Positions 32,628 to 38,516 of a DNA stretch of 63,500 bases are shown in pieces. The stretch is taken from contig VEPI01000063.1 in NCBI GenBank assembly GCA_012026935.1, forward strand, positions 23,327-86,826, written 5' to 3'. This DNA comes from Melioribacter sp. (GTDB taxonomy: Bacteria; Bacteroidota; Ignavibacteria; Ignavibacteriales; Melioribacteraceae). Both the position numbers and the translations under genes were made by a program. The notes under the pieces are model-generated. The model was not told the origin of the DNA. It was given only the letters and a program-made list of their open reading frames with translations, and searched no databases. The first letter of the stretch is position 1, and each line of letters opens with the position of its first letter.

Positions 32628-35426
32628 CTATTTTTTCCACTCTCTGTTTTCTTTACGGTCCTTCTCCTGTTCTTTAGCTTCGCGCATCATGTCATTCACG
32701 TTATCAATCTCAGGTGATTCGCTAAGGGATTTCCAGTCAAATTTTTCATCGAGCGGGGTTAATGCTTTCTGCGGATCAAAAATTCTTCTATCAATATCTA
32801 AAGCGTTGTAAGAAGTGAAATCGGGTTTATCGGTAAAGAAATCCGAAAGATCGTTTGCGCCGGCATCAAATTGATTTAAATACGGAATGCCGAGAACATT
32901 CCAGAAAGTTTTGAAGATACTGCCGAAACTGTAATGAACATGACTGACATAATTTTTCTTCGCATAAGGAGAAATAACCATTAACACACTTCTATGTGCG
33001 TCAACATGATCAACACCATTCTGTGCATCATCTTCGGTAATTACGATCATCATGTTTTTCCAGTATGGGGTATGAGAGAGAAATTCTACAATTCTCCCGA
33101 CAGCAAGATCATTGTCTGCCATATAACTTTCGCGAAACGGATATCCAGCCTCGGGACGGTCACCCGCTCCGTGATCATTCGGTACAATAACAGTAAGAAC
33201 GGACGGCATTAATTTTCCTTTTCCCATCCACTTTTCGTTAAATTCTTTTTTGAACATATCAATTCTAAATTGATCAGGAATGGAAGTGTTGTATGTCGGA
33301 TAGATTCGTGAAGTTTTGTTGAACATCGGGCGGGGAACAGGATAATTTACGTAATGCCGAACACCGCCGTATTTATAACTTGCATCGTAAGATGCCGGTT
33401 CGAACATCATTCCGAAACCGAAATTGAAAAAATCTATTTTGTTTCTTTCAAGATGGTCCCACATTGATCCTGCTTCGTTGTAATCTTCGGGATAGATAGC
33501 GCCTGCAGTTGGGTTGATTCCAAGAGCACCCTTAGCTTTCGAATTTTCCTTTGCATCTCTATTGTTTCCGTAATCTGCGGGAACTATCGTTTCCACCCAT
33601 TCATTTGGATAAGTATTAACAAGCCAGCGGTGCCCGTCAGATGAAACATCGGAATCAACATAAAAATTATCTGAGATTGAAAATCGCTTTGCCAGTTCAA
33701 GATGATTTTTCATTACAGTTGCATCTTTTACTTCTGAAGTTTTTTTTCTGTTTGTGAATGAAACATTTTTACCATATCTGGCGAGAGTTGAATCACCATT
33801 TCCGTTTTTAACGTTCCCGAATATTTCATCATAAGTTCTGTTTTCTTTTGAAATGAAAACGATGTATTTAATAGGGCTAACCTTCTCTTTCGGATAAAGA
33901 GGAATGGGATTGTTTTTTATTTCGGAAAATTTCTGTGAAGACGATTCCTCAATTAAAAAATTATTATCAATTACTTTCTGAGTAAGCATGGGAAGTTCAT
34001 CGTCTTTTGGAATAACAATTACCGAGATAGATCCTTTCATCAGGTTGCCGATGTAGCTTCCTTCGGGCCCGCGTTTAAAATTTTCTCCTCCGTTCGGCCC
34101 GCTGCCGTATCCTTTTGCATTTGCAACGAACAATTTTTCCCCGTCTTTACTTACTTTTAATTTTGCAGGGAACCAACCTGTTGGTATGTGTCCGAGAATT
34201 TTCATTTTATCAATATCAATTACTGCGATGGCATTAATTCCGGATTCTGCAACGTATAATCTTTTTTGATCTGGCGAAAGGGCAAGTCCGTATGGAATTA
34301 TGCCGCGTAAGTTTTTTAAGCGGTCATCGAGCACAAGTTTTATTGTTTTAACAATTTTTTTCTTTTGGATATCAATAACCGAAAGATTATCGTTGGTTCC
34401 ATTACTGACAAACAAATATTTGTTTGTTGCAGCAAGTGAGTTTGGACTTGAACCTCCAACAGCCGGAATTCCTTCGATCAATTCTCCAATTTTAACACCG
34501 GTCTTTATTTTTTTTGTAACTCTTGGATGATTCAAATCTTTGTTATCTATAATAAAGACAGAGAAAGCATCCGAAGAATACGGATCGCCTAAACCTGGGA
34601 CCTTTATATCACCTACCTTAACGCCGTTCCGCGATTCTTTCGACATATAACCGAAAGGTGGGAAAGCTAATCCTTTCTCTTTAACATTTTTGTTTGTTAT
34701 ACCTGGGATACGTTTGTATTCGTACATTCCTACATTTGCAACAAAAATATTTTTTTCATCAGGCGAGAGTGTGATTCCGAAAGGATATCTTCCAACCGGT
34801 ACACTTTGTAATAAGGATTTTGTTCTGGTGTCCGCAACAATCATTCTAAAATTGATTTGATCAACAGCATAAATTTTTTCTCCATTACTTGATAAAACCA
34901 AATCACCAATGTATCCGTGAGTGTAATCGAGTTGATTATCTATGTATGCGCAATTAATTGAATCAATTTTATTTCCGGTTGAAATTTCGAACAGATAAAT
35001 TTTATTTGTTTGCCCTCCGGCTACATAAACAATTTTATTATCGGGAGAGACCGCAAGTCCCATAAAAACAGATGCAAGAACACCTTTATCGGTATTTGCG
35101 CCCGGAGGAACTTGCTGAACAACGGGATTTTCACTCAAAATATTTTTGATCAACGTAATGCAAAGAGGATCTGTTCCGGAATTCGCAGTAACAAGTACAT
35201 TGCCATCCTGACTTAAAGCTAATCCGTAAGGGTGCGGCGCGGTAATAATTGTTTTACCCAACGGAGTTATAAATCTGCCGTTGGGAATAACTGTCTTTCC
35301 GTTCAAATCAATTTTTGTAAACTCTTTTTGAGCCGGTGCGGAGATAATCCACAAATCTTTTTTCGATTGTGATTGTACATTTAAGTAAAAAGTAAAAAAT
35401 AGAAATAAGCAGATAAAATTTTTCAT
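32628..35426 (-). CDS. bifunctional YncE-type beta-propeller / phosphoesterase
   Basis: 932 residues. Signal peptide ends NVQSQ (~20). The first half (~40-480) carries YVTN/YncE repeats (PYGLALSQDGNVLVTANSG, LAVSPDNKIVYVAGG, GITLSPDEKNIFVANVG). The second half (~510-890) is an alkaline-phosphatase-superfamily phosphoesterase with ISKENRTYDEIFG, DGHRWLV, NDHGAGDRPE and ITEDDAQNGVDHVDAHRSV. Such fusions are known in Bacteroidota; the substrate (phosphate ester or phospholipid) is not proven. Periplasmic or surface location is expected. Cotranscribed with the PfkB gene. Confidence 0.9.
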   Translation of the reverse strand: MKNFICLFLFFTFYLNVQSQSKKDLWIISAPAQKEFTKIDLNGKTVIPNGRFITPLGKTIITAPHPYGLALSQDGNVLVTANSGTDPLCITLIKNILSENPVVQQVPPGANTDKGVLASVFMGLAVSPDNKIVYVAGGQTNKIYLFEISTGNKIDSINCAYIDNQLDYTHGYIGDLVLSSNGEKIYAVDQINFRMIVADTRTKSLLQSVPVGRYPFGITLSPDEKNIFVANVGMYEYKRIPGITNKNVKEKGLAFPPFGYMSKESRNGVKVGDIKVPGLGDPYSSDAFSVFIIDNKDLNHPRVTKKIKTGVKIGELIEGIPAVGGSSPNSLAATNKYLFVSNGTNDNLSVIDIQKKKIVKTIKLVLDDRLKNLRGIIPYGLALSPDQKRLYVAESGINAIAVIDIDKMKILGHIPTGWFPAKLKVSKDGEKLFVANAKGYGSGPNGGENFKRGPEGSYIGNLMKGSISVIVIPKDDELPMLTQKVIDNNFLIEESSSQKFSEIKNNPIPLYPKEKVSPIKYIVFISKENRTYDEIFGNVKNGNGDSTLARYGKNVSFTNRKKTSEVKDATVMKNHLELAKRFSISDNFYVDSDVSSDGHRWLVNTYPNEWVETIVPADYGNNRDAKENSKAKGALGINPTAGAIYPEDYNEAGSMWDHLERNKIDFFNFGFGMMFEPASYDASYKYGGVRHYVNYPVPRPMFNKTSRIYPTYNTSIPDQFRIDMFKKEFNEKWMGKGKLMPSVLTVIVPNDHGAGDRPEAGYPFRESYMADNDLAVGRIVEFLSHTPYWKNMMIVITEDDAQNGVDHVDAHRSVLMVISPYAKKNYVSHVHYSFGSIFKTFWNVLGIPYLNQFDAGANDLSDFFTDKPDFTSYNALDIDRRIFDPQKALTPLDEKFDWKSLSESPEIDNVNDMMREAKEQEKDRKENREWKK

Positions 35427-35473
35427 TTGGCAGTTATGATTTTGTTATTGTTGGTTTGATTCAATACTTAAAA

Positions 35474-36367
35474 TTAGTTTCTTCTTTTGATTTGAACAAC
35501 AATGGCTCCTGCAGCTGCTATAAACATTCCGATTCCTTCTTCCCAAGTTACAGGCTCACCAATAAAAATCCATGCGAGAAAAGCAATTTGGATTAACATT
35601 GTTCCGTTTATAATGCTGGACTCCATAGCGGTGAGAGTTCTCAAAGACAAATTCCACAAAGTAAAAGCTAAAGCGGTATTTACAACCGAGAGCCAAAGTA
35701 AAAATAAAATATTGGTTAAGCTAAGAGGAGGCAAACCCTGTGCAGCAAGACCAATGATCAACATAACAATGGATCCAATGCTCATGCTTACAACTGTAAC
35801 TGTTAAAGGGTGAAATTTGCGACTCCGATTTATTCCTCGTCCCAGTACTGAAGAAAATGCATTTGAGAAAACTCCGATTACCATCACAACAATTCCTAAA
35901 ATCTTACCTTCGGATAAATCAACCGGATAAAAGTACGTGAGAATTCCTGCTATAAATAAACCCGCACCCAGCCACTGAAGAATGGAAGGTTTTTCTGACA
36001 AAAGAAATATTCCCATAACGGCAACAATGATTGGAGTAAAATTGAGAATAAGACTTACAGTCACGGCGGGCAGAAGCGACAATCCGATGAATTGTGTTCC
36101 TTGAGTTAATGTATAAAAAAGAAGCCCGAGAACTGTTAAACGAAACCAATCTTTACGATCAATATTTTTTATCTCGGAAATTTTTTCTTTTGTTAACATA
36201 AAAGGAAACAGGCAAATAAAAGCCAAGAAGTAACGCAAGCCTGCAAAAGTTAGCGGTGGAATATCCCGCAATCCCCACTTTATTATTATGAATGATGTTG
36301 ACCAAAAGAAAGTAACAAGTAATGCAATTAAAATAGATGCGGTTCTTGAAAGTGGTTTAGAAAAAAT
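35474..36367 (-). CDS. EamA/DMT-family transporter, apparent AUU start
   Basis: 297 residues, about ten helices in two EamA repeats; the closing segment is IFIGEPVTWEEGIGMFIAAAGAIVV. A search for ATG, GTG or TTG finds only a TTG at 36271, inside the conserved first helix (FWSTSFIIIKWGLRDIPP). The homologous frame continues upstream to ATT at 36367-36365, with AAGAGG 5 bases before it, and an in-frame TAA at 36379-36377. No other start codon is available, so an AUU start is the best reading. A sequencing error or a mutated ATG is the alternative. Substrate: a small metabolite, unknown. Confidence 0.85.
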   Translation of the reverse strand: MFSKPLSRTASILIALLVTFFWSTSFIIIKWGLRDIPPLTFAGLRYFLAFICLFPFMLTKEKISEIKNIDRKDWFRLTVLGLLFYTLTQGTQFIGLSLLPAVTVSLILNFTPIIVAVMGIFLLSEKPSILQWLGAGLFIAGILTYFYPVDLSEGKILGIVVMVIGVFSNAFSSVLGRGINRSRKFHPLTVTVVSMSIGSIVMLIIGLAAQGLPPLSLTNILFLLWLSVVNTALAFTLWNLSLRTLTAMESSIINGTMLIQIAFLAWIFIGEPVTWEEGIGMFIAAAGAIVVQIKRRN

Positions 36368-36372
36368 ATTTG

Positions 36373-36378
36373 CCTCTT
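36373..36378 (-). promoter_or_regulatory. ribosome binding site supporting the AUU start
   Basis: AAGAGG on the minus strand at 36378-36373, spaced 5 bases from ATT at 36367-36365. Its position decides the start of the EamA gene. Confidence 0.55.
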
Positions 36379-36415
36379 ACTAACCTGTTAAAAAATAATC
36401 AGCTATTAATAGTTT

Positions 36416-36778
36416 TTATTTACCTATTAATAATTTTATAGCATAGAGAATAAGAAATACAGCGAAGACTTTTTTCAAAACTCCTTCAGGAAGAGTAATG
36501 GCGTATAAAGATGATAAATAACTTCCTATCACAAATGTAACTGCCATAATGCCGACGGCTCTTAAATTTATATGCCCGGCTTTATAATAGTTCATTACAG
36601 CAAGGATTCCGATAGGAAGAAGAAGAAGACCGAGTGAAGTTCCCTGTGCATCTTTTTGAGTGTATCCTAAAAATCCCACAAGCATAGGGATTATAATTAT
36701 TCCGCCTCCAATGCCAAGCACACCGCTTACTAAACCGGCGGCAAGACCAATGATTAAAAGAATTAGTATTTCATTCAT
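36416..36778 (-). CDS. half-size TauE/SafE-family (DUF81) membrane protein
   Basis: 120 residues with four hydrophobic helices. The Gly-rich motif GLAAGLVSGVLGIGGGIIIIPML is the first-repeat signature of TauE/SafE permeases, which normally have about 250 residues and two repeats. This version has one repeat and would need to dimerise. Family members are thought to export sulfite or organosulfonates; the substrate here is unknown. It lies 48 bases upstream of the EamA gene, same strand. Confidence 0.8.
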   Translation of the reverse strand: MNEILILLIIGLAAGLVSGVLGIGGGIIIIPMLVGFLGYTQKDAQGTSLGLLLLPIGILAVMNYYKAGHINLRAVGIMAVTFVIGSYLSSLYAITLPEGVLKKVFAVFLILYAIKLLIGK

Positions 36779-36881
36779 ATAAGGTTTTATTTAATTGAAT
36801 CGTGCGAAATATAATGAAACGAAAAATATCATGCTTAATTGAAAAATAGATTCTTCGCTTTAGATGCAATTGATTATTAAA

Positions 36882-38516
36882 TTATTGTTTAACCGACTTC
36901 AATACCCAATCCTTAGGATCAACCGTAAAATCAGAACCTTCCGGTAAATCAATCACATCTTTTCCGTTTTTCATTTCTGCGCGAACAGTTTTTCCTGCGA
37001 TGCTTACATCAACCGGCATAGGGAATGGAAGATTATTTTCGGTTTCCCAACTAAGTTCTACCTTGTTGCCGTCTTTTTTCACATTTAAAATTGGGAGAGA
37101 AGAATGACGAAGATAAACTTCAAAGAACCAATCCAATTTTTTACCTGAGATTTTTTCGGCTATATCCAATAACTCATCCGTAGTTGTAAACCTACATTGT
37201 CTTCCGTCTTTTATTTTTTCCATTTCTTCGGTTGGATATGCCCATCTTCGTAAAACCCTAAAGAATGTTTCGTCTCCAAGATAATAACGAAGTGTATGAA
37301 CAATCCAAGCACCTTTATAATAGATATCGTTTCCATAAACTTCGCCGGATGATTTTTCTCCTCTAGGTGCAACGGGTTGTTTATTTGCAAAACGTTTAAT
37401 TGATCTCATATATCTGAAATATTCATCTTTACCAAAAACCACTTCGAGGTAAAGCGGCTGCATATATGTGCCGAGTCCTTCTGCAATCCAGAATTCGCTC
37501 CAATCCTTACATGCAACTAAATTCGCCCACCACTCATGAGAGAATTCATGATGATGAAGCCAATCGAAAGCAAACTGCGGATGATTTTTCCATCCGTATC
37601 CATATCCAATTGCTGTTTGATGTTCCATACCAAGATGGGGAGCTTCAACAACGGAATATTTATCGGCACGGAACGGATAAGGACCAATTAGTTGTTCTTG
37701 AACTTTCATATGTAATAAAAATTGAGGTGCGTGCTCTTTTGCTTTTTCAAAACTGTCCGGAAGAACCCAGATGGTGAAGGGAAATTTTTCACCGGTAATT
37801 GAAGTGTAGTCGTAATCAATTGCTTTATACGGACCGAGATAAAACATGACACAATAATTATTGATGGGAGTTGAAACATACCAGTTCCAAGTTTTCGTAC
37901 CGTTATTATTATTCACAGTTGATTTTAATTTTCCACTGCCGATACAAATTAAATCGGAAGGAACATTAAAATGAAGCGATACGGAATCCGCTCTATCTGA
38001 AGGATGATCTTTGCAAGGCCACCACACATCAGCGCCTCCTCCTTGACATGTTACTGTTACCCAATCTTTTCCATCTTTTGTTTTTGACCAAACCATTCCT
38101 TCATCCCACGGCGGACGTTTTGGAATTCTAGGAATTCCCGCATAATCAATTTTTGTTGAAAATATTTCTCCGCGTTTTATTGTGTTGGAAAAATCAATCC
38201 AAATTTTTCCGCCTTCATGAGTAAACTTTAGATCAATTCCTTTTTTGTCTTTTGTTAACATCTGCACTGATTCGATTTGGAATGTAGTATCCAGATCAAC
38301 TAAAATTTTATTGAAGTCTTTAACCGCTTCAGCTCTCATTATTACAGAACCGGCAATTGCTTTTTCTGCCGGATCAATTCTGATGCTAATATCATAGAAT
38401 TTTACATCGTAACATGCTTGATAAGGAGATAGCTTGCCGCCCGAATCCAATTTACCGAGTTGAGCAAAAGTTTGCGCTGATAAAACAATGAACCATAGAA
38501 CAAATATTTTCTTCAT
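36882..38516 (-). CDS. M1-family metallopeptidase
   Basis: 544 residues from the ATG at 38516. The longer frame to 38558 is rejected: the chosen start has an AAGAGAA site and opens a signal peptide ending TFAQ. The gluzincin site is HEFSH (323-327) with the downstream ligand E346 in WIAEGLGTY. The GAMEN-like exopeptidase motif reads GMEHQ (296-300). Secreted aminopeptidase of the M1 family. A C-terminal beta domain ends the protein. It is transcribed alone. Confidence 0.93.
   Translation of the reverse strand: MKKIFVLWFIVLSAQTFAQLGKLDSGGKLSPYQACYDVKFYDISIRIDPAEKAIAGSVIMRAEAVKDFNKILVDLDTTFQIESVQMLTKDKKGIDLKFTHEGGKIWIDFSNTIKRGEIFSTKIDYAGIPRIPKRPPWDEGMVWSKTKDGKDWVTVTCQGGGADVWWPCKDHPSDRADSVSLHFNVPSDLICIGSGKLKSTVNNNNGTKTWNWYVSTPINNYCVMFYLGPYKAIDYDYTSITGEKFPFTIWVLPDSFEKAKEHAPQFLLHMKVQEQLIGPYPFRADKYSVVEAPHLGMEHQTAIGYGYGWKNHPQFAFDWLHHHEFSHEWWANLVACKDWSEFWIAEGLGTYMQPLYLEVVFGKDEYFRYMRSIKRFANKQPVAPRGEKSSGEVYGNDIYYKGAWIVHTLRYYLGDETFFRVLRRWAYPTEEMEKIKDGRQCRFTTTDELLDIAEKISGKKLDWFFEVYLRHSSLPILNVKKDGNKVELSWETENNLPFPMPVDVSIAGKTVRAEMKNGKDVIDLPEGSDFTVDPKDWVLKSVKQ

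Follow-up and report, generated by a model that had tools for sequence, protein, structure and literature searches.

A conserved AUU codon as the apparent translation start of an EamA-family exporter gene in Melioribacter and related species

The gene for an EamA/DMT-family exporter of Melioribacter sp. appears to begin at an AUU codon. Because AUU, AUA or AUC is retained at the same place in 17 related species, this unusual start appears to be maintained, and we consider it probable that AUU acts as a conserved weak start that limits translation of the exporter or gates it through initiation factor IF3. The gene lies in the window, by which we mean the whole stretch of 63,500 nucleotides that was analysed, and all positions below are those of the window:

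35474..36367, minus strand: coding sequence of the EamA/DMT-family exporter as read from ATT, 297 codons plus stop, an open frame
36365..36367, minus strand: apparent ATT start codon; all 17 intact orthologs from genera g1, g12 and g42 have ATT, ATA or ATC (ATH) here
36373..36378, minus strand: Shine-Dalgarno site AAGAGG with GAGG core, ending 5 nt before ATT
36377..36382, minus strand: in-frame stops TAG TAA, which close the frame upstream (sequence)
36269..36271, minus strand: TTG, the first standard start of the exporter frame, codon 33 from ATT, rejected as a start
36272..36346, minus strand: predicted transmembrane helix 1, residues 8-32 (AlphaFold2 model)
36416..36778, minus strand: half-length TauE/SafE permease gene, 120 aa (Pfam TauE, 71.4 bits), with its stop 48 nt before ATT

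The exporter frame reads TAG TAA (36382-36377), GAG GCA AAT and ATT (36367-36365) on the minus strand and is open from ATT to the TAA at 35476-35474. ATG, GTG and TTG are all absent from the frame ahead of TTG 36271, and coding appears to begin at a codon other than AUG, GUG or UUG. The initial annotation had given the same coordinates, the AAGAGG site, the in-frame stop and a frame open to ATT 36367, all of which were found as written when the sequence was re-read. A 932-aa protein with a YVTN/lactonase-type beta-propeller and a phosphoesterase domain is encoded downstream (window 32628-35426).

The exporter matched the Pfam family EamA (PF00892) in two stretches or repeats with 152 bits (cut-off 28.2). 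The match begins 10 codons past ATT (residue 13 if the translation is started two codons earlier), so the domain lies partly upstream of TTG 36271. No NCBIfam equivalog passed its cut-off, the best being TIGR00950 with 99.1 bits vs. 230.2, and a search by sequence gave no PDB chain at E <= 0.01. The AlphaFold2 model has a 10-helix-type fold (mean pLDDT 89.3, pTM 0.86), and Foldseek matched it to structures of the DMT fold, among them the choline importer LicB (7paf_A; E 5.4e-8, TM 0.76-0.80) and 5i20 (TM 0.76-0.80), which we take to be YddG.

Protein searches located the gene in this genome (G000) and in relatives. Conservation of the start codon was evaluated in 79 genomes of the family, of which 48 gave matches with E values no higher than 4e-58; 54 start regions were read, one from each of these 48 genomes and six from other families of the order. 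The aligned start codon of the 17 intact ATH orthologs is ATT in 15, ATA in one and ATC in one, and these orthologs belong to three genera (11, 4, and 2 species). Genus g1 has an intact gene in 11 of 12 species, with ATT in 10 and ATA in one (G003), the twelfth species being G010; the four species of g12 have ATT (three) or ATC (one), and both species of g42 have ATT. The apparent start codon is conserved across species of three genera, whereas the 34 more distant orthologs differ and have ATG, GTG or TTG near the aligned place. The distance to the conserved motif AL.VT..W is 11-20 codons from their standard starts and 14 from the ATH codon, and the ortholog of G030, which has ATG, aligns with the ATT orthologs without gaps. 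The initial annotation had called the AUU start apparent, had offered a mutated start codon as the alternative and had proposed that relatives be checked for ATG. None of the 17 intact orthologs has ATG there and all keep ATT, ATA or ATC, which upholds the first of these readings, speaks against the second and makes a sequencing error or recent mutation very unlikely.

Pairwise comparison of the 17 intact orthologs revealed no non-synonymous difference at the start codon in 136 comparisons, and each of the eight codons preceding it was non-synonymous in 66-126 of the 136, the lowest (66) being the GAG of the Shine-Dalgarno site. Past the start, codons 6 and 14-19 had none and codons 1-5 and 9-13 had 31-96, so the N-terminus of the exporter is only loosely conserved. 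An in-frame stop is present six or fewer codons upstream of the ATH codon in 10 of the 17 orthologs, and 13 of the 17 have no standard start upstream in frame. In the other four (G004, G003, G065, and G066) a TTG lies in frame 15-27 nt ahead of the ATH codon, at positions not common to the others, and could serve as an alternative start in these species.

The 16S tail of this genome is canonical (CACCTCCTTTCT), and Shine-Dalgarno sites were scored by the strongest duplex that this tail forms within the 20 nt ahead of the start. The AAGAGG site has a duplex of -5.8 kcal/mol, which is ordinary, as 39% of the sampled sites are equally strong; shuffled upstream bases average -3.8 kcal/mol. The median was -7.2 kcal/mol in the 17 ATH orthologs vs. 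-2.7 for 29 of the 34 orthologs with standard starts (Mann-Whitney p 5e-7), and the ATH sites were also stronger than all 842 sampled sites of the congeners G007 and G001 (p 9e-4), both p values being too small because the rows are related. The sampled sites had medians of -4.2 (772 ATG), -7.2 (12 GTG), and -3.2 (58 TTG) kcal/mol. Judged by their median of -7.2, the 17 ATH orthologs appear to have strong sites as a group; that of G003, which has ATA, is weak (-2.7 kcal/mol).

The rarity of such starts was assessed with 1.0 Mb each of G007 and G001, which gave 537 non-overlapping, reciprocal-best ORF pairs. An aligned standard start was held in common within the first 25 columns by 452 pairs, and seven were flagged because conservation extended upstream of the first standard codon. 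Two of the seven were real by eye, namely the exporter, with neither copy having a standard start, and glyS, with one such copy (that of G001; the G007 copy has a GTG in frame four codons upstream). The other five comprised two genes whose ATG follows a conserved leader, two cases of split or partial ORFs, and one poly-A slip. As 78 pairs neither shared a start nor were flagged, the survey count is a lower bound. A general habit of AUH starts was rejected, since the 537 pairs gave only the exporter and glyS. Near 1190731-1191496 of G001:C3 (numbered on joined stretches), a run of nine A separates a gene from an ATG in another frame, whereas the ATG is in frame in G007; the difference reflects an indel, slippage during transcription or a slip in the assembly.

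The infC gene, which lies outside the sampled 1.0-Mb stretch, starts with ATC (eight) or ATT (four) in all 12 congeners (L118, L120, L121, and L124-L132, the own copy being L127), and these starts directly follow an in-frame stop and G/C-G-AGG sites. Among eight further genomes searched for infC, the start was resolved in three, all of which have ATC. The glyS gene, which encodes glycine-tRNA ligase (NF003211, 671.9 bits vs. 312), appears to be a second and more widely spread candidate for an AUC start:

L191:12963-14417, minus strand, and L203-L232: glyS loci, the own copy being L214 (G000:C159)

Of 30 loci of the order, 26 have ATC followed by GCN/GAN and AAR/CAR at the same position, in most of them just after GAGG(T), and 14 of the 30 have no standard start ahead of the conserved region. 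Among the 12 congeners, seven are without an upstream standard start (one of these, G006, on a contig that ends 10 codons upstream) and five have an upstream GTG or TTG. No publication on a glycyl-tRNA synthetase with an AUC start codon was among the matches listed.

A weak start of this kind would operate through a good Shine-Dalgarno site that brings the ribosome to AUU, where imperfect pairing with the initiator tRNA would make initiation weak and open to rejection by IF3. Output of the exporter would stay low and would rise and fall with IF3 activity, as for infC. This scheme supposes that ribosomes do initiate at AUU, that the product begins with formyl-methionine, that IF3 of this organism discriminates against AUU and that selection maintains a low or IF3-linked output. 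IF3 represses non-canonical starts such as those of infC and sigR, and infC starts with ATT in E. coli and ATC in Streptomyces (PMC5472188, in excerpt). In S. aureus, infC (AUA), cvfC1 (AUU), and ccpN (AUA) have conserved starts, extended Shine-Dalgarno sites and reduced output (PMC13009471, in excerpt). The translational control that the initial annotation had associated with an AUU start is plausible in that it agrees with the literature on such starts, and the exporter would fit the conserved, non-canonical starts discriminated against by IF3 in every feature visible in the sequence. A riboswitch or other known RNA was rejected, as Rfam gave no match in window 35300-37000, and RNA folding of four start regions was no better than that of shuffles (z 1.11, -0.32, 1.18, and -0.27). 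The lack of an Rfam match or RNA structure pointing to a regulator counts against control.

The main rival is translational coupling, in which ribosomes finishing the half-TauE gene re-initiate at the nearby AUU, so that no strong start codon would be required and AUU would be tolerated through its operon context rather than retained for control by IF3; we regard it as unlikely. Half-TauE immediately precedes the exporter in 16 of the 17 ATH orthologs, with gaps of 9-114 nt, as it does in G095. Among the 34 standard-start orthologs it was found in only one, G092, where the exporter ATG and the TauE stop overlap, so its presence nearly coincides with ATH starts (Fisher p 9e-11, computed with relatedness ignored and not taken as proof). 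In 12 of the 34 standard-start rows less than 500 nt of upstream sequence was present, so TauE is not surely absent from these rows, and G087 (85 nt) and G061 (182 nt) are the least certain of them. In E. coli, mutant initiator tRNAs also allow re-initiation at non-AUG codons (PMC2268962, in excerpt). Against coupling, G009 retains ATT although the 1200 nt upstream contain no TauE, five species, this one among them, have gaps of 48-114 nt, which is far for re-initiating ribosomes, and the ATH orthologs have strong Shine-Dalgarno sites of their own. An ORF of G009 that ends 68 nt upstream resembles, by eye, the end of an M1 peptidase, and an M1 peptidase precedes TauE in the window. Coupling to TauE may have helped the AUH start to arise, yet the retention of ATT in G009 suggests that it is not needed to keep it.

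Neutral drift, in which AUU works well enough in this lineage and is inherited without selection, is less probable still. A tree of 50 rows (G010, G095, G013, and G032 left out) required four changes of the ATH label vs. a mean of 14.4 for shuffled labels, and none of 500 shuffles was as low. All 17 ATH rows are in one 27-row branch (98/93) along with 10 standard-start rows; one gain with losses and several gains both appear to fit the tree. A single ATH clade was not rejected (p-AU 0.30), which would allow one origin of the trait, and ATT makes up 56% of isoleucine codons, so that ATT in 15 of 17 orthologs is only mildly skewed; both points favour drift. However, the third base of the start codon changes among T, A, and C and is G in none of the 17, though dS reaches 0.5-2.3. 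The standard start shared by 452 of the 537 sampled pairs, from which only two genes depart, also argues against drift, as does the reconstruction of ancestral starts, in which one AUG in 61,358 became AUU (PMC5622118, in excerpt).

Initiation at TTG 36271 or at another downstream codon is very unlikely. TTG 36271 is the first standard start in the frame, but it is the leucine codon 33 of a conserved KWGL stretch, is absent from that place in several orthologs (G004, G005, G001, G009, and G003), and as a start would remove residues 1-32 with helix 1. Other standard codons downstream are at differing places among the orthologs. The initial annotation had seen the conserved first helix begin upstream of this TTG, and the AlphaFold2 model has helix 1 at residues 8-32, just ahead of it. 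The exporter gene is intact and under strong purifying selection, with a dN/dS of 0.067-0.144 in eight ortholog pairs. Codons 1-33 are themselves constrained in most of these pairs, with dN far below dS in seven of the eight pairs; the exception is the close pair G007/G008 (dN 0.027 vs. dS 0.042).

A sequencing error, a recent mutation of the start codon or a dying gene has next to no probability, for although the exporter copies of three relatives are broken, the ATH codon class is found in 17 separately sequenced species and purifying selection on the gene is strong. The broken copies are those of G010 (L033/L270), with an internal deletion and the Ile-initial stretch still present, G095 (L256; genus g53), with an in-frame TGA, and G013 (L030; genus g3), with an in-frame TAG; the latter two have ATA/ATC-type codons at the start, yet a stop in frame.

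Unusual decoding was rejected as well. Readthrough or frameshifting from TauE finds no conserved overlapping ORF around ATT in the 17 orthologs, where stops occur in all three frames at varying places, and the frames of TauE and the exporter relative to each other differ by species (gaps of 48, 55, 114, 32, 30, 33, 15, 13, 16, 9, and 36 nt). Slippage on the T-run was rejected because relatives with ATTTTC are without the run.

Start-codon callers assume ATG, GTG or TTG, so annotation has probably overlooked the exporter and its relatives or truncated them by helix 1. In the literature surveyed, few genes other than infC have a conserved AUU start. That of the exporter can be traced over 17 species, and the standard-start orthologs provide natural controls that differ in Shine-Dalgarno strength and in the lost upstream gene. 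No publication on an EamA gene with an AUU start codon was found in the part of the literature searched, and none of the Melioribacter start-codon papers, judged by title, concerned an AUU start of an exporter. If control by IF3 were confirmed, it would extend to a transporter and, with glyS, would suggest a gene set tuned by initiation fidelity. A tentative extension, which we hold to be possible though doubtful, is an IF3 regulon of this lineage in which a small set of genes, at least infC, glyS, and the exporter, with their GAGG/GAGGT-type sites and AUH codons, link initiation fidelity to amino-acid supply; the level of IF3 would then set how much is made of IF3 itself, an aminoacyl-tRNA synthetase and an exporter of amino-acid type.

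The exporter appears to be a new instance of the conserved, non-canonical starts already known from infC, pcnB, and sigR. Like infC, it has an AUH codon after a good Shine-Dalgarno site that is conserved among relatives; unlike infC, it encodes a membrane protein and not a translation factor, which makes an autoregulatory loop impossible. Binns and Masters reportedly described in 2002 an AUU start of E. coli pcnB that is thought to limit output, and pcnB is likewise a gene outside translation, though of a different gene family and phylum. Streptomyces sigR also has a genus-conserved, non-canonical start (GTC in 32 of 34, GTT in two) and a conserved ribosome-binding site, but its start is GUC rather than AUH, and the effect of IF3 was measured for sigR and is inferred for the exporter (PMC5472188, in excerpt). 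The genes cvfC1 (AUU) and ccpN (AUA) of S. aureus likewise combine a conserved AUH codon with a strong Shine-Dalgarno site; their starts were mapped by Ribo-Ret and tested with reporters whereas that of the exporter is read from sequence, and they represent regulators and a small protein whereas the present gene encodes a transporter (PMC13009471, in excerpt).
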